Source of the DNA: Nitrososphaeraceae archaeon
GTDB taxonomy: Archaea > Thermoproteota > Nitrososphaeria > Nitrososphaerales > Nitrososphaeraceae
Direction: 5' to 3'
Assembly: GCA_031316115.1 (NCBI GenBank)
Contig: JALDRC010000001.1
Location: 1-64,000, forward strand
DNA: 64,000 nt
Part shown: piece by piece, positions 15,148 to 57,988 of the stretch
How the letters are laid out: each line of letters starts with the position of its first letter
How positions within the stretch are numbered: position 1 is the first letter of the stretch
Made by a program: the position numbers and the translations under genes
The notes under the pieces: generated by a model
Databases searched by the model: none
Seen by the model: the letters and a program-made list of their open reading frames with translations, nothing else
What the model was told of the DNA's origin: nothing

Positions 15148-16910
15148 CTAGCTAACATAATTTCGCTAATCAATTGTTCTCATAAAATACCTTACTATAG
15201 CCAGAATAAATCTTGTATTCCTGTATGAACAACAAATATTGTATTTTAGAGCATCACATGTACTATGATAAGTAGAAAGTATATGATACTTACCTTGTCT
15301 CCAACATTCCTCTACTGGATTAAACTCAGGACAACCAACAGGAAAATATTCTAATCTAATAGTATCCTTGTGTTGTGCAAGATATTGTTTTGTTCTCTTT
15401 GAATGGGGAGTTGCTCTATCAACAAATATCATAATGTTCAAAAAAGTATTTTATAGAGTTGTTTTAGATAACCTACAAACATCTTGCTATTAAATTCATA
15501 GTATTGTTTGAATAACTGTCTGCATTCAAGAGATAAACATCCAAAGACAATAGTCTTTTTACAACGTCTAGTAGTAACTGTAACTATTGGTCTTTTTTCT
15601 GCAGAAATCGACTTCTTTCACATTAAGATATAATCTTACAAATATTTATTTATCTTGTATTATCAGATTCCAATACTTCCTTCTGTTTTTGAGAATATGG
15701 TTTGCTCTTTTTTGAATTGGTACCTTGGATTTGAATCCCCAATTCTGTAATAATCTGTATATATATATATCTAATTCATGGCTCTGTTAAGATAAGATAA
15801 TATTCACCTCCTTTAACCAAAAATTATTGTTATTATTTGTTATTACATCGTTATACATAGAAGTAAAGAATTGTATCCAGTTATGAACATGAAATAGATT
15901 ACATTCAATTTGCTTACAAGGATAGTAATCATCAAATGATTCAATTCTATCTTTAAAATACTGGTTTGCTCTTTCCATCAAACTTTTTCTATTGAAGAAT
16001 GTAGATAGTGTTTTAATTCAATTACATGACACGCTTCCTCGTACTATACCGCCATCTGTATAGACAGTATGTTTTCCATATTTTGTAACTAATGATCTAA
16101 TGAATTTTTCTGCAACAAGCATGTTTCTCTCTTCAGAAATATAGATTCCAAGCACCGAAGAGTTAATTGGTTCTATACATATCCATAACCAATAATGTTG
16201 GTTACCAATCTGAATAATTGTTTCATCTATAATAAAAGCAGTTACTCTTTTTCTTTTGTAGATCTGACAGGAACCAAACCTTTGTATCCAATTCCAAACA
16301 GAAACATGACTCCTTTTATCATCTCTAAATACTACTAATGCTTTAGATGTACTGCGTAGGCTCAAACCAAGAAAGTACAGATAAAGAGAATACATTACAA
16401 TAAAAGAAGCTGTTCTATTTCTTTCAAATTTGATTTGATTCATACGATAAATATAAAGTTCTTAGCTATAGCTGTTTCTGCTTAAGTTAACAGAACCTAA
16501 TTCATGATATCTTCTTCCTGTCTTTGTGTAGATAACATCCATAACCTGGCTGAAATCCCATCCTGTTTTGCTTTCTGCTAATTTCAGTCTTGTTTTTAGC
16601 ATTACATCGTTTGGTACATCTGGAGGTCTTCCTGTTCTTTGTCGGTTGGTCTCGCAACTCATCTAATCCATTTTCATTGTATCTTTTGTGCCATTTGTAA
16701 GCCCATGCTCTAGATCTAGGTAATTCTTTTCCTACATCTTCTATCTGTTGTTTATCATGTGTTATACGTCTTATAGATTGTATTGTTTCTTTGATGTCTT
16801 CCTTAGATTCCTTGTTTGTATAAATTCTCTAGTTTACTAATACTATGCAATTATAGTGATGTGTATGAAACTGTTAGCTAAAAATCTATTTACCAACTTT
16901 AGTTAGTCAG
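15148..16910 (-). mobile_element. IS630-type element, decayed, split by an IS6-type insertion
   Basis: The right part (15148-15779) encodes the catalytic half (FVDRATPHSKRTKQYLAQHK, NPVEECWRQG), and the left part (16498-16910) encodes the HTH half (RTGRPPDVPNDVMLKTRL). Removing 15780-16497 plus one copy of the 8-bp target repeat restores the frame through GRRYHEL...LLQNWGFKS, which matches the copy at 53853-54919. The ends are ctagctaac (15148) and gttagtcag (to 16910). Other frameshifts are present, so it is inactive. Confidence 0.85.
15780..16497 (-). mobile_element. IS6-family element with 8-bp target duplication
   Basis: Terminal inverted repeats ggctctgttaa (15780-15790) and ttaacagaacc (16487-16497). 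It is flanked by the perfect 8-bp repeat taattcat (15772-15779 and 16498-16505), the length expected for IS6. The transposase reads [19 protein letters not shown] and VYTDGG, then is broken between 15981 and 16018 by a small lesion, so the element is probably inactive. It is inserted into the IS630 element around it. Confidence 0.9.
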
Positions 16911-49655: not shown

Positions 49656-52520
49656 ATGCAAAGGCAACAGGAAGGGGCTCAAGAGCAACAGAATAACCAG
49701 GATCGATATTATTATTCTAACTTTATCAATTCACTCAAATCTAAAGATACCAAATCTGTTTATATAAGAAGAGTTGGGTATTTCATGAGTTTTCTAGGAA
49801 TCATGGAAGGAGAATATTCTAAACTTGTAGATGAACTTGATAAGAAAACCATAGATGATAATATCAAATCTTTTCTTGTATATTTGAGGCAGGAGAGAGG
49901 TGGAGTATCTTACAGGTCAGCGTCTTTCTATCTGGATTCAATAAAGAAATTCTACTACGTTAATTCCGATTATGAATTCAAATGGAAGTTGATAAAGATG
50001 TATCTTGGTGATGATGATGTGGACTGGACCCATGTTTTTGGGAACACTTTTCCCATTTTCATATAGATACTAATATTTTCTTCATTACCAATATTTATCA
50101 CCTTCTCCTTCTCATTCTCAATGTCAATAATTTGTTGTTGCAGTTTCCATTTTGAAATAAACTCATAGGGTGTAAGATACCTTAGTGCAGAGTGTATTCT
50201 GTTCTTGGTTGTAATCAGTGAATGCATCTCTGATTGCTGATTCTGCTTCCTGATAGTTCTGGAAATCATTTGACCAAATATACTCCTTCTTCAGTGTCTT
50301 GTGGAATGATTCAATGTGTCCGTTTTGTTCTGGTGTATTGTAGTAGATATGTTCCAGTTTCAATCCTAGACAGATATAGCTTTTCTAAATGCTTTGCTTG
50401 TATACTGAACTGCTGTCTGTTCTGATAACCAGGTTTTCAGGTGTTATACCTTTATGTGTTACAAGAGCATTTTCATCGCTATTATTGCATTTTCTTTTAC
50501 TGCAGACAGATCAAAAACAGTAGCCAACCCATTCCCTTGTAAATACATCAAACACATTGAATAGGTAGCCCCATCCATCAATACTCACCATGTATGTTAG
50601 ATCTTGGTTTCCCATACTTGGTTTGGTCTATTTGCTTTTACATTGGGCATTTCTTGAACGAAGGATTTCCCTCTTACTTTTAGATGGCGTAATGTAACCC
50701 ATCTTTCTGAAGATTCTTTGTACCCTCTTTCTGTTGATGGGTATTCCTAATGCTCTTGTCAGCATTGGAGCCATTCTTCGGGTACCATAAGTTGGTCTTT
50801 GTAGGGAGATTCTTTGTATCTCTTTTTCTATCGTTTTTGTTGTTGATGGTATTTCTGCAGTAACTGGTTACTGCATTAGCAATAGCATATCTGTGAATTT
50901 TATTTCGGTAGCATATATTTTTACTACATCCAGAATATCTCAATGCCTTTCTAATGCTAATTCTTCTTGTTGTGCTGTTATTGTTGTTTATTATTGTCCT
51001 TACCACTGCTAACCTTTCCTTCCTGTTTCTAACGTTTTTTTAAAAGCATCTATTGCTATTGTCTGTTCACCGATGATCCTCTTTAGACGTTCATTTTCTG
51101 TTTCCATAATTCTGTTGATGTTATCTTTACCGTACCTGACAATGCAATCTTATTCTCCTTCTATGAATTTCTGTTTCCAGTTATAGAACACATTTGGATT
51201 TAGATTAAAGACTTTCTACATAGTTCATACTGTGATGTTTGTAGTCAAAGATTCCATTACAATCCTTGTCTTGTCTTCTGGTGTCCATCTTCTACTCTTA
51301 GTATTTCTGTTGTGGTTATTGTTTTTACTAACACCTTGCATCTGTCTGACCTCCTATTCTATTAACACTGTTAGAAGTAAAAAAGTCTCCATTACAAGGT
51401 GTTCTCATTTTTAATGGGTCCAGACCAGATGACGATACTACTACTGCAGACACATAGGCAGTAGTAGAAGAGGACAGGCCCTATACTAGAGAGGAAATTC
51501 ATACCATGTTAAAAAGTGCTAACGATATCAGGACCAAGATAATCATATTGCTTATAGCGTCTTCTGGAATGCGAATGGGTGCTATTGCTGCTATAAAGAT
51601 AAGAAATCTAGTCAAAAATCCAGAAACTAGGAATTTATCAGATATCAAGTTTATGAAGGTTCCAGGAAATCTAACTATAAAATATTTTAAAATTCTGAAT
51701 TTTACTAATATTATAGATTCATATCTGGACTATAGAAAAACATGCTGGTGAACAATTAAAGGATGCAAGTCCATTAATCAGAGAACAATTTGATTCTACT
51801 GATATGTTCAAAGTCAATAATCCAAGACACATTGGAACTGACTTGTAAAATATCTGGTTAATGAAGTATTGGTCAAATATTCTACATTAAAGGAGAAACA
51901 TGAATACGATTATGAAAAGAGGAGAATGATTGGTAGAAACCCAACTATGCTGACACTGCCTTACGCAAGTTCTTTGATACAGAGTGTAGAAAGGCAGGCG
52001 TATATCCAGACTTTGTTGAATTGCTAATGGGTCATAAATTACCAGGTGTGAAAAGTCATTATTTCATTGGATATGAATACGTTGTTGGAAGCGCATAGGA
52101 GAATGCAAAGGCTATAAGCAAGGCCGCTATCAATGACCTAACAATAAACGAAGAATTTCGCTTGTCAAAGCAGGTCAAAGAACTAAATGAAAGTATGAAT
52201 ATCAAAATTATGTAATTGATAAGAAACTAAAAATCAATGGAAGATTTCATCCTACAAATTTCTTGACAAGTATGAAAAGGTAGATAGAATAGAACACCAG
52301 AAGGAATTGCAGAAACTAACAGAGACGAAAGAAAGTATTATGCAATGTTTCCAAATGGTGAACCATTATCAGAGTCATTAGAGAAAATACAATACAGAAG
52401 GAAATGAATGAAGATATCTACAAACAATGGTTTTTGCTTATTAAGGATAGACCAGATTTACAACAGAAATATGGAGTTAAGTTTGTAGATAATGGTAGGA
52501 ATATAATGAAAAATAAATGA
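49656..52520 (+). pseudogene. tyrosine recombinase (integrase) interrupted by IS3 and decayed
   Basis: The N-terminal SAM-like DNA-binding part is intact (49656-50024; DTKSVYIRRVGYFMSFLG). After the IS3 insertion (50025-51422) the catalytic domain continues: RPYTREEIHTMLKSANDIR, the first catalytic Arg in SSGMRMGAIAAIK, then in other frames ELLMGHKLPGVKSHYF with the His and nucleophilic Tyr. Frameshifts and stops remain even after removing the IS. It is the likely integrase of the element that fills the rest of the window. Left att site not identified. Confidence 0.85.
50025..51422 (-). mobile_element. IS3-family element, copy 2, decayed
   Basis: Ends tggacccat (50025) and atgggtcca (to 51422), flanked by gac on both sides (50022-50024 and 51423-51425), the 3-bp target repeat. 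It has the same organisation as 2578-3963 but orfB is split into several frames (pieces in 49970-51006), so it is inactive. It sits inside the integrase gene. Confidence 0.9.
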
Positions 52521-53678: not shown

Positions 53679-53862
53679 ATGTCTGAAATTAATAAAGAAA
53701 CACTTCCATTAAATGAGATAATAACAAAACTAGTTTTCACCTGAGTTATGACTTGCTAAAGAAGTTAAAGTGTCATGCAATTGATAGCGATCAGACTTTG
53801 TCTGGAGTGATCAATGACGTATGTTATGAATATCTTGATAAGAGAACCTATACTGACTAACT
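53679..53862 (+). pseudogene. RHH-type regulator, frameshifted and cut by IS630
   Basis: ATG 53679 gives MSEINKETLPLNEIITKLV. A one-base shift then leads to FHLSYDLLKKLKCHAIDSD and QTLSGVINDVCYEYLDKRTY, the usual RHH helix pair. The C-terminus runs into the IS630 element beginning at 53853. Likely a regulator of the element, now dead. Confidence 0.6.
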
Positions 53863-54919
53863 AAACTTCGTAGATACATTTTTGTTAACCAGCATCCTAC
53901 ACATATCATAATTGCGTCATTATACTAAACTAGATAAGATTTACAACCAAGAATCTAATGCAGATATTAAAGAAAGAATACAACTTGTAAGACGTATAAC
54001 ACAAGATAAACAACACATAGAAGATGTAGCAAAAGAATTACACAGATGTAGAGCATGGGCTTACAAATGCAAGTACAAACGATACAACGAAAAATGGATT
54101 AGAAGGATTGAAAGACCAACCAAGAACAGGTATTTCCAGATGTACCAAAAGAAACAATGCTAAAATAAAAAAATGAACTAGCAGAAAAAAGCAATGCAGG
54201 ATGGGATTTCAGACAAGTGATGGATCTTATCTACAACAAAACCGAGTAAGATATCATGAGCTTACATATCCATCGTTTGTTACACAAGTGGGGATTCAAA
54301 TCAAGCGCACAAAGAAAGATTTGTTAATACTGTTTCTACAAAGGAAAAGAAGAGTTTCAAAAAAGAGTAAACCATATTCTGAAAAATAAACGATGATTGG
54401 AATATAATAAAGATAAGATGAATCAATATTTTGTTTATGATTATATCTTCAAGCGAAAGAAGTGGATTTCTGCAGATAAAAGACCAATAGTTACAGTTAC
54501 AGCTGGTTATCGTAAAAAGACTATTGTCTTTGGTTGTTTATCTATAGAAGGTAAGCAATTATTTTTACAATATGATAATTTTAACAGTATTACATTTGTT
54601 GATTATCTGAAACAAATACAAAAGCAATTTGGTAGATCCATTGTGTTTGTTGATAGAGCAACACCTCATTGTTCTAAGATAACAAAACAATATCTTGCAC
54701 AACACAAGGATGCTATCAGATTAGAATATCTTCCTGTTGGTTCCCCAGAATTTAATGCAGTAGAAGAATGTTGGAGACAGGGAAAGTACAACATACTTTC
54801 TTGTTATTATAATACATTTGATTCTTTAAAGGATGTAATTTCTAGTTACTATAGAACAAGAAGATTTAATCTAGATGTTATAAAGTATCTCACAAGGTCT
54901 ACGGATTAATGTTATTCAG
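53853..54919 (+). mobile_element. IS630-type element, most complete copy
   Basis: Ends ctgactaac (53853) and gttattcag (to 54919), with TA on both sides (53851-53852 and 54920-54921), as expected for IS630/Tc1. The HTH half is broken (53912-54163, then 54201-54389 in other frames). The catalytic half 54397-54909 is a continuous frame with Asp in FVDRATPHCSK and Glu in FNAVEECWRQ. Inactive as a whole. Confidence 0.88.
54397..54909 (+). pseudogene. IS630 transposase catalytic half
   Basis: 170 residues of the DDE domain without interruption: KRKKWISADKRPIVTVTAGY, IVFGCLSIEGKQLF, VDRATPH, and VEECWRQGKYN. It lacks the N-terminal DNA-binding part because of upstream frameshifts, so it cannot act as a normal transposase. 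Confidence 0.8.
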
Positions 54920-55000
54920 TATAATATTATTATTTATTATACTATCTTACTTTCCAATTTTCACTAACTTTTATCGACAAGTGATAAGTATAATGATTCC

Positions 55001-55206
55001 CATAATTTTATACCGTATAGTGTTCCTTAAAATGGAGAGTTATGGTAGAAGTTTAGCCTCCTCTTCTCTTCTACCGCTCTCCATTATTACACTCGGAATG
55101 TTTCCCAATACTGGAGAAACGATAAAAGGGATGTGCAAAAGGAAAGATAAGGGATAAGGAAGTGCGCCATGTTCTTACTTATTCCCTAATCTCTCCGATT
55201 TTTATC
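55001..55206 (+). ncRNA. candidate structured RNA, unit A of a tandem pair
   Basis: A TATA-like box cataattttataccg (55001-55015) is followed about 15 bp later by hairpin 1: aatggagag (55031-55039) with ctctccatt (55077-55085), and inside it ggtagaag (55044-55051) with cttctacc (55068-55075). Hairpin 2 is agataagggataaggaag (55145-55162) with cttacttattccctaatct (55174-55192), ending before a T-rich stretch. The same design recurs at 55230. With an archaeal box-to-start spacing, transcription would begin at hairpin 1. The plus strand is inferred only from the box; a DNA-level site is the alternative. Confidence 0.5.
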
Positions 55207-55229
55207 CAACTTATAAATATTATATTTAC

Positions 55230-55460
55230 CATAATATTATACCGCAAATCAAAAAGACCTCCTTGGAGAGTAAAACCTTGGTAGAAATAGCCTCAATCTC
55301 CTGTTTTCTACCTCCTCTCCAACTGTAGTTTGATATATCATGCTCGCATCGTTTCCAAATACATGAGACAAATTGAAGGAACAGTGTCATAGGGGAGAGT
55401 AGGGCGAAAAAACGAACTTACCGGATTCGTGATTCATTTCCTACTCTCTCAGTTTTATAT
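55230..55460 (+). ncRNA. candidate structured RNA, unit B of a tandem pair
   Basis: Box cataatattataccg (55230-55244). Hairpin 1: ttggagag (55263-55270) with ctctccaa (55315-55322) and inner ggtagaa (55280-55286) with ttctacc (55306-55312). The loop again contains tagcctc. Hairpin 2: gagagtagg (55395-55403) with cctactctc (55440-55448), followed by a short T-run. The outer A-T pair of unit A is T-A here, so the base changes on both sides keep the stem. The unit ends at the stop codon of the convergent zinc-ribbon gene. Confidence 0.5.
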
Positions 55461-55463
55461 TAT

Positions 55464-55922
55464 TTATTCTAAGTCTGCACTATTATCAGAATAACTGATT
55501 AATTTAGCACCTCTATCAATTCGATCCCGTATAAACTCTAATTCTTCTGGTTCCTTTCTTAGGTTTCCATTTATCTTGCTTTTTCTGTTTCTTCTGCTCT
55601 GGGTGAAAGGTTCAACATACAATTTCTTGCTGTCATGAATTGTTTCTGGTACTTCCTTGAAACCTGCTATAGTACTTTCTTGTTTGCCATGCTCTACTGG
55701 ATATATTGTACCGCATTCATAGCATTGCAACCAACTTTCAGAGTCTTGAGGAATAGCGCCATTGATGTATTCATGTGGTTGATACACTCTAGGTTTAAGT
55801 TCCTTGTATGGAAAACCAAAGGATTCACAGTGGACACAATATCTTTTGTCTTCTGGGTCTGAATTGTAATAATTATCAGTTATCGAAGTAAAATAAGCCC
55901 TTCTAGTTTTTATGTGTACCAT
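55464..55922 (-). CDS. zinc-ribbon protein at the end of the terminase operon
   Basis: A 152-residue protein with YCVHCESFGFPYKE and LQCYECGTIYPVEHG, two CxxC pairs that together make one zinc ribbon. The C-terminus is basic then acidic (RRNRKSKINGNLRKEPEELE). It begins 16 bp after the terminase stop on the same strand, so it is cotranscribed. It may help the terminase bind DNA, but that is only context. Confidence 0.7.
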   Translation of the reverse strand: MVHIKTRRAYFTSITDNYYNSDPEDKRYCVHCESFGFPYKELKPRVYQPHEYINGAIPQDSESWLQCYECGTIYPVEHGKQESTIAGFKEVPETIHDSKKLYVEPFTQSRRNRKSKINGNLRKEPEELEFIRDRIDRGAKLISYSDNSADLE

Positions 55923-55938: not shown

Positions 55939-57561
55939 TTAGTTGTTAGTCTTAAATATCACGCCTTTTAGGGCTAGCCTTAGAGCGTCAATAGAGTCGT
56001 CTTCCAGGGTCTGGTCCTTGTCCAAGTCCCAACCATTTGTTGCCCATGCTGTACGTAATGCTGTCTCCAGTCTGCTGTATTGTTTGGGTATTGCTAGTTT
56101 ATGTTTTACCAGTAAATGATATGTGTGTTCTAGCATTGACTTGTGGTATTTTGTGAAGTTAACTGGCAATATGTGATTGTCATCTGGGTTTATATCCTCT
56201 GCCTTATCCCATTCCAATGACTCACCAAACTTTGACTTGCATTCATTGACTGCACCTCTGTTTGCACCGTCCAGGAAGAACGAACAGAATCGAATTTCAG
56301 TATGTAACTTAAACAGAATGTCAGCAATAAATGAAGGTGTTTTCTTGTCATAGGTTTGTTCCCTGATAACCCTAACTATTTGGTTCTCTGTATCCAATTC
56401 ACAGATACAAATACTAGTTACTGAACTTGAGAAACCAAAGTCTACACCTACAAAATGCAGTGCATAATTATTGATTGGCAAGTCTTTGTATTTCTCTCCT
56501 AAATCTAAAGCGTAGTCAATGTAGTCATTTGGTAATACATTACCACCAATAGACAGAAATTCTGCTTCATAAAATTGACTGTACAATGGGCCTAGTCTCT
56601 CTCGTTCAGCGTCCAGGAACTCCTTAGTTATTAGGCCAGCGTTTACTGCTTGCTGTGCTTTTACGATATAAACTTTGAATAGTTCATTGCTATCTTTAGA
56701 TATTTGCGGAACAGTTCCGCTATTGAATGTCTCATTTGAGACATTTGATATAATATTTACATTATTTTCTGGTGTTTGTTGTAAATCTAAATCATTGTCA
56801 TTTGACAATCCTTTTGTTGTAGAAGAATGTTTATGATACTTTTCATACAACTCGAATACCTTGCCCTTTGGTCTTCTGGGAGGTGTCTCTATCAGCATGG
56901 TTCCGTCTGTATTCGCTAGTCTACTGAATGCAGCAGCAAACAATGACTCGTCATTAACTAACTTGGAAGCAGTAATATCAGAAAAGTGAATGTGTCCAAC
57001 TTGCTTCCAGGACCAAATCTGGGTTTCACTACTACCAAGCGCTATTATTGTGCCTGGTTGCAACTGGTTGTTTGGGTTCTTGATGTATGCAACTCCAACC
57101 TTCGTTTTCTCTTCTGCTAGTGATAGTTCTGAGGGTTTGGTTATCAGAAAGTGTCTATATTTCTCTGAATTAAGTATCAGGTTCTTCAGTGTTCGTAGGT
57201 GTTCGTTAGCATGTGCTTGACTCTGTGCTATGATAAGGATGTCTTTGCCCTTGCATGTTGTAAGTGCTTTCTGGAAGTCTTCTAGCAGTGCTGAAATGCT
57301 TAAACCAACCTTCTGTGACTTTACTACCAGTCTGTACTTGGTTTTATCATTCCAAATGTCGTACTGATATGGTGTTAGTTCTGGTACTGGTTCTCCAGTC
57401 TTGGGATGCAATAGGTAACCGAAATCAGTATAGAATTCTTGTGGATCTAGTGGAATGTTTATGTTACTAATTAATGACTGCTTACTATCTTTAGCATTAT
57501 CTCTATCCTTAACAGTATCTAAGGATAATAAATTATTGAGTCTCTGATATGCTTTCAGCAT
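55939..57561 (-). CDS. large terminase subunit (TerL-like packaging motor)
   Basis: 540 residues. The ATPase part has a terminase-type Walker A, VVKSQKVGLSIS (residues 79-90), a hydrophobic strand ending in Asp (GHIHFSDI, to 195) as a possible Walker B, and a coupling-like TMLIETPPRRPKGKVFELYE. The nuclease part is RuvC-like: VGVDFGFSSS (Asp374), FFLDGANRG (Asp431) and LEDDSIDALRLAL (Asp525). A variable acidic/Asn-rich linker (250-295) lies between. TerL packages DNA into viral capsids and cuts it. The start overlaps the small-subunit candidate by 29 bp. Confidence 0.85.
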   Translation of the reverse strand: MLKAYQRLNNLLSLDTVKDRDNAKDSKQSLISNINIPLDPQEFYTDFGYLLHPKTGEPVPELTPYQYDIWNDKTKYRLVVKSQKVGLSISALLEDFQKALTTCKGKDILIIAQSQAHANEHLRTLKNLILNSEKYRHFLITKPSELSLAEEKTKVGVAYIKNPNNQLQPGTIIALGSSETQIWSWKQVGHIHFSDITASKLVNDESLFAAAFSRLANTDGTMLIETPPRRPKGKVFELYEKYHKHSSTTKGLSNDNDLDLQQTPENNVNIISNVSNETFNSGTVPQISKDSNELFKVYIVKAQQAVNAGLITKEFLDAERERLGPLYSQFYEAEFLSIGGNVLPNDYIDYALDLGEKYKDLPINNYALHFVGVDFGFSSSVTSICICELDTENQIVRVIREQTYDKKTPSFIADILFKLHTEIRFCSFFLDGANRGAVNECKSKFGESLEWDKAEDINPDDNHILPVNFTKYHKSMLEHTYHLLVKHKLAIPKQYSRLETALRTAWATNGWDLDKDQTLEDDSIDALRLALKGVIFKTNN

Positions 57562-57988
57562 GTTCTAACTTTGCTTTTAGTTGTGCTAATACTGGTGTTC
57601 CCAAGGAGACTTCTTCTATTAGTTTTACGTTCTCTCTAATCTGATATGCTAATTGCTGAACCTTTGCTTCATTCCTTTTCTCTGGAGGTTTATTGTATTC
57701 AATCATATAATCTCTAAAGGTATTTTTTTGTAGGGTTTGCAGTATCTGGAGTTGTTCCTGGTGTGATACAATAAATCCTATCTTTGTAAATTGGTTTAGC
57801 CAGTCTTTAGCATATTCTCCAGTATCAACTAACTCTTTACGACGATAATAGGTTTCAGGACTTATTTTTCTACCAAGTCTTACTTCAATGTATTTTAGTG
57901 CGTCTTTCTCAGACAATTCTAAATAAACGCAATCTGCAATTAATGGATTTAATACCTTAACTTCATGTGCTTTGAAATTTCCACCCAT
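57533..57988 (-). CDS. small terminase subunit candidate
   Basis: A 151-residue protein. The N-terminal HTH-like region (LSEKDALKYIEVRLGRKISP ... YYRRKELV) is followed by long helices (IVSHQEQLQILQTLQKNTFR, QQLAYQIRENVKLIEEVSLG). The size, DNA-binding start plus oligomerising helices, and position just before and overlapping the large subunit all fit TerS. No sequence signature proves it. Confidence 0.6.
   Translation of the reverse strand: MGGNFKAHEVKVLNPLIADCVYLELSEKDALKYIEVRLGRKISPETYYRRKELVDTGEYAKDWLNQFTKIGFIVSHQEQLQILQTLQKNTFRDYMIEYNKPPEKRNEAKVQQLAYQIRENVKLIEEVSLGTPVLAQLKAKLEHAESISETQ

Follow-up and report, generated by a model that had tools for sequence, protein, structure and literature searches.

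Integron attC arrays consist of tandem imperfect hairpins with variable inner stems, in which RYYYAAC/GTTRRRY boxes are present and gene cassettes lie between the sites, and intergenic repeats of the REP/MITE type are dispersed, multi-copy, and hairpin-forming. In Listeria, LhrC1-5 comprise several similar copies of a hairpin sRNA, which are used additively and carry C-rich loop motifs (PMC4132741). Racrs are solitary small noncoding RNAs that are carried by viruses and mimic CRISPR repeats (PMC10651486). The locus analyzed here lies in the window, a 64,000-nucleotide stretch of contig JALDRC010000001.1 from a Nitrososphaeraceae archaeon. As in an LhrC-like system, it is made up of similar structured units, each with a promoter and a terminator of its own, both predicted by sequence only. 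Tandem imperfect hairpins with variable inner stems are also shared with attC arrays. However, the stem ends are TGGAGAG/CTCTCCA or CATAGCC/GGCTATG rather than RYYYAAC/GTTRRRY, no genes lie between the units, and the units have their own promoter-like elements; an integron attC array was thus rejected.

The initial annotation described two tandem modules, each composed of a box and two hairpins, and both were found at the positions given. As a count of units, two proved too low: the 3′ arm of a further unit was identified at 54941–54975. The features of the region are as follows (C20, most intact copy of the surrounding element).

49656–52511, + strand: tyrosine integrase of the element, in fragments (tblastn with the C20 integrase as query)
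53726–53845, + strand: what remains of the element's RHH (CopG-like) gene (85% identity with the element protein of C20)
about 53849–54923, + strand: IS630-family insertion (many same-end copies in the genome, inverted ends TATACTGA..TCAGTATA, DDE_3 domain)
54941–54975, + strand: remains of one more unit, class A and truncated, comprising its 3′ arm and T-run (almost the same sequence as the 3′ portion of the C3:28559 unit)
54981–55017, + strand: putative promoter region of unit 1, with TATA-like TAAGTA at 54985–54990 and a predicted start at ~55012 (37-nt profile score 38, TATA-N20-TAC geometry)
55031–55085, + strand: hairpin 1 of unit 1 (fold, covariation)
55141–55196, + strand: hairpin 2 of unit 1, then TTTTT at 55199–55203 (fold)
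55210–55246, + strand: putative promoter region of unit 2, with TATA-like TAAATA at 55214–55219 and a predicted start at ~55241 (37-nt profile score 44)
55264–55321, + strand: hairpin 1 of unit 2 (fold, covariation)
55393–55450, + strand: hairpin 2 of unit 2, the terminal hairpin, kept beside gp7 in other copies, then TTTT (fold, alignment of copies)
55464–55922, − strand: gp7, 152 aa, containing two CxxC motifs and facing the array in convergent orientation (homologues beside most clusters)
55939–57561, − strand: terminase large subunit, TerL (weak PHROG match here; the PHROG match of the C20 homologue is clear, 1.3e-22)
57533–57988, − strand: small ORF before TerL, placed where a terminase small subunit would be expected (judged by position only; HTH in its C20 counterpart)

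The boxes were located as described (cataatTttataccg at 55001–55015 and cataatAttataccg at 55230–55244), TAGCCTC was common to the hairpin 1 loops of both units, the outer pair beyond TGGAGAG/CTCTCCA switched from A-T in unit 1 to T-A in unit 2, and hairpin 2 was followed by a T-rich end in both. Compared with dinucleotide shuffles, unit 1 folded with a z score of −5.3 (0 of 200 shuffles as good) and unit 2 with a moderate z score of −2.4 (3 of 200). The general plan of a unit is a TATA-like box, a conserved start region, a leader of ~20 nt, and a hairpin, after which the unit ends with a T-run either directly or behind a second hairpin. The window feature is the surviving 3′ end of a longer tandem array. 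Both the array and the RHH gene were cut by the IS630 insertion, which now occupies the place of the rest of the truncated unit and of the end of the RHH gene. An explanation of the units as ends of a known transposon was excluded, and a MITE found no support, because the sole transposon here is this IS630 element, which has its own ends and interrupts the array.

Next to these confirmed features, the assignment of the box as a TATA element, with transcripts starting exactly at hairpin 1, did not hold. The conserved stretch consists of TAAATA (TAAGTA in unit 1), 20 nt, and TAC; counted from the first base of TAAATA, strong conservation in this genome was seen for CAT (+16 to +18) and TAC (+26 to +28). 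The hexamers lie ~16 bp upstream of the box, and the distance from TAAATA to TAC is the usual archaeal distance from TATA to start; therefore, the box was read as a start region rather than as a TATA box. The predicted starts (~55012 and ~55241, with rightward transcription) would fall inside the box, ~20 nt before hairpin 1. The profile scores of 38 and 44 come from units that are both among the seeds of the profile, and Markov sequence of window size gave 0–2 matches above 12. The TATA-N20-TAC spacing was common to two unrelated hairpin classes, with a noisy set in the relatives. A generic stable-RNA promoter was rejected: the upstream region of one tRNA-Ser looked alike by eye, but across 28 tRNA upstream regions the 37-mer scored no better than shuffles, suggesting that it is a dedicated element. 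A dispersed motif of promoter-like pattern, TAGATGGTATGTTTTCCATATTTTGATAC, was observed at window positions 16057, 22717, 36979, 39989, and 48581; it is unrelated and overlaps or adjoins coding regions of IS240-like transposases.

A blastn search of the region against its own genome returned seven other places; on inspection these proved to be tandem units built from the 37-nt conserved stretch, followed by a leader and a hairpin and, in many cases, by a T-run. A covariance model, a check of the kind proposed in the initial annotation, was built from 18 units; it detected 32 places in ~11 clusters in this genome, whereas no match was obtained in 69 other genomes of the family Nitrososphaeraceae. 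The units took two forms, one with a single hairpin closed by a T-run of at least four, the other with two hairpins, as in both window units. Among 22 scored units, 12 were followed by a T-run of at least four, compared with 11% of the 12-mers of the window. The second hairpin of the two-hairpin units was conserved next to gp7 in several copies, and copies of gp7 or TerL adjoined most clusters in this genome.

In the unit alignment, 88.3% of the cells of the outer 9-bp stem were paired, compared with 80.3% in shuffled and 43–51% in slid alignments, and double changes occurred in 16 cells compared with 5.3 in shuffles (0 of 500); the structure was derived from the same alignment, which gives it an advantage in the count of paired cells and a smaller one in the count of double changes. 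Depending on the unit, this helix closes with C-G, U-A, or A-U as its outermost pair, and the two arms of one unit paired better with each other than with the arms of other units (p 0.004). No covariance model of Rfam 15 matched the window region or eight array-bearing loci at or above its gathering score, a pattern scan of viral_contigs gave 7 matches that all lacked hairpins and were taken as chance, and the papers searched yielded no description of such a hairpin-RNA family and no small-RNA studies for this group of soil archaea. The covariation observed here and in the relatives described below, together with the absence of an Rfam match, supports the proposal of a so far undescribed family of structured RNAs.

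On C20, which has the most intact element copy, a D5/DUF5906 primase-helicase, an HTH protein (likely TerS), TerL (PHROG terminase, 1.3e-22), and gp7 were found together with a single terminal hairpin, an RHH protein, a protein of 233 aa, and a tyrosine integrase; a host Nre gene lies beyond the element. The stretch concerned (G000:C20:12216-22247) is a nearly intact integrated element; no capsid gene was recognized in the part read, which would fit either a satellite-like element or a provirus covered only in part. On the far side of the array, homologues of RHH, the 233-aa protein, or the integrase were found in the window and at several other clusters, and most arrays in this genome lie between the TerL-gp7 terminase operon and the RHH/integrase module. 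As element genes flank them on both sides, most arrays of this genome lie within integrated virus-like elements. The TerL of the window seems to be a mosaic: its C-terminal half resembles the C20 TerL (52%), whereas its N-terminal half matches other genera and further copies, among them C1:182497 (76%). A search of viral_contigs with gp7 found nothing, phage records held nothing relevant for TerL and the array, and TerL had no match in PDB.

In another species of the genus (G002, matching CRAIB_MAG96), the corresponding position next to TerL-gp7 is also occupied by an array, with stems of the form CATAGCC..GGCTATG that are unrelated to those of the window. This class gave 8–11 matches in each of five other genomes of the genus (5/5). 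The stems of the relatives were paired in 86.7% of cells compared with 76.7% in shuffles, with 54 double-change cells compared with 30 (0 of 500). A third genus (g6) has a further multi-copy class, ACTGGTGGG..CCCACCAGT. In this class (L159, L160, and loci L225-L244), a conserved loop, TTGTTCATTCAATCAA, was observed in multiple copies across the genus. What ties the classes together is their synteny and architecture rather than any similarity in sequence. From species to species the stem sequences appear to be replaced, whereas the architecture is retained.

Unit anatomy, covariation, copy number, and syntenic position are firm as features read from the DNA, and the best reading of them is a putative, fast-diverging, multicopy family of hairpin sRNAs, which is element-borne here. 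We consider it probable that genes for small hairpin RNAs are arranged in tandem at this locus and that every one of them has its own promoter. Each unit would be transcribed rightward from an archaeal-type promoter (TATA-like hexamer, 20 nt, TAC start). A single-hairpin product would comprise a leader of ~20 nt and one long hairpin, end at the T-run, and measure about 80–110 nt, and the two-hairpin products of the window units would measure about 190–220 nt. The carriers in this genome would be integrated virus-like elements (TerS-TerL-gp7, array, RHH, integrase) that are now mostly decayed. More tentatively, and with less than even confidence, the products might be trans-acting small RNAs, with many slightly different copies acting at once, that regulate mRNAs of the element or the host or bind a partner protein. 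No antisense targets above chance were found within the window. A C-rich loop motif, of the kind that in an LhrC-like system would pair with the SD region of an mRNA, was enriched here (6 of 29 loops compared with 1.0 expected, a post hoc count) but not in the relatives (4 of 38 compared with 1.9).

The main rival that remains, which we regard as unlikely, is that the units are tandem repeats of a selfish or neutral kind, resembling REP or MITE cassettes, which spread in the genome and merely fold well, with no function for the carrier. The copies are indeed many and dispersed, with one sequence class per genome and other classes in other species. However, promoter geometry, T-runs, and covariation are all kept, five relatives retain a hairpin whose loop is conserved, and the unit has no transposase or terminal repeats of its own; compared with REP/MITE repeats, the units have a TATA-to-start element, a single polarity, and no transposase-linked ends. 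The array next to the terminase genes, with an RHH gene adjacent, could also be a DNA-level site of the element, that is, a packaging site, replication origin, or partition site of repeated hairpins, and the RHH class is frequent at partition or operator sites. This possibility, raised in part by the initial annotation, is disfavored and appears very unlikely, because the CATAGCC-class arrays in the five relatives mostly adjoin ordinary host genes with no terminase near (contigs short), the C20 element retains only the terminal hairpin of the array, and the polarity of TATA, start, and T-run fits transcription. Hardly probable at all are RNA decoys against host defense (RNA anti-CRISPRs) or sponges for a host defense protein, which would agree with an element-borne, multi-copy, structured family whose stems vary by host species and which, like Racrs, would be small, noncoding, and virus-borne, but Racrs are solitary CRISPR-repeat units (PMC10651486) whereas the arrays here are tandem, similar arrays occur at host loci, and in this genome an intact Cas1 is missing, the one Cas1-like fragment (G000:C18:12789-12890) being short, below threshold, and interrupted by a stop, so that CRISPR adaptation seems to be lacking.

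If the hairpin-RNA reading is right, a major group of soil archaea gains a multicopy RNA family that is apparently undescribed, and the terminase operon of integrated thaumarchaeal elements has an RNA component beside it. The predicted start sites and probes are concrete, making expression directly testable. A bolder extension, which we hold to be quite improbable, is that of a diversifying arsenal, in which soil ammonia-oxidizing archaea, together with the elements integrated in their genomes, maintain dozens of hairpin RNAs, each under a promoter of its own, with stems rewritten between species and a persistent promoter and architecture, as if co-evolving with a fast-changing partner. If true, this could mean, for example, a conflict between element and host run by RNA without CRISPR.

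For trans regulation, LhrC1-5 (PMC4132741) offer the nearest working analogy, as multiple similar hairpin units. LhrC is bacterial, has tested targets, and is unrelated in sequence, whereas the family proposed here is archaeal and element-borne, with ~30 units and a weak C-rich loop signal. Multicopy sRNAs are already known, and it is the element-borne tandem array with lineage-specific stems in ammonia-oxidizing archaea that appears to be new.
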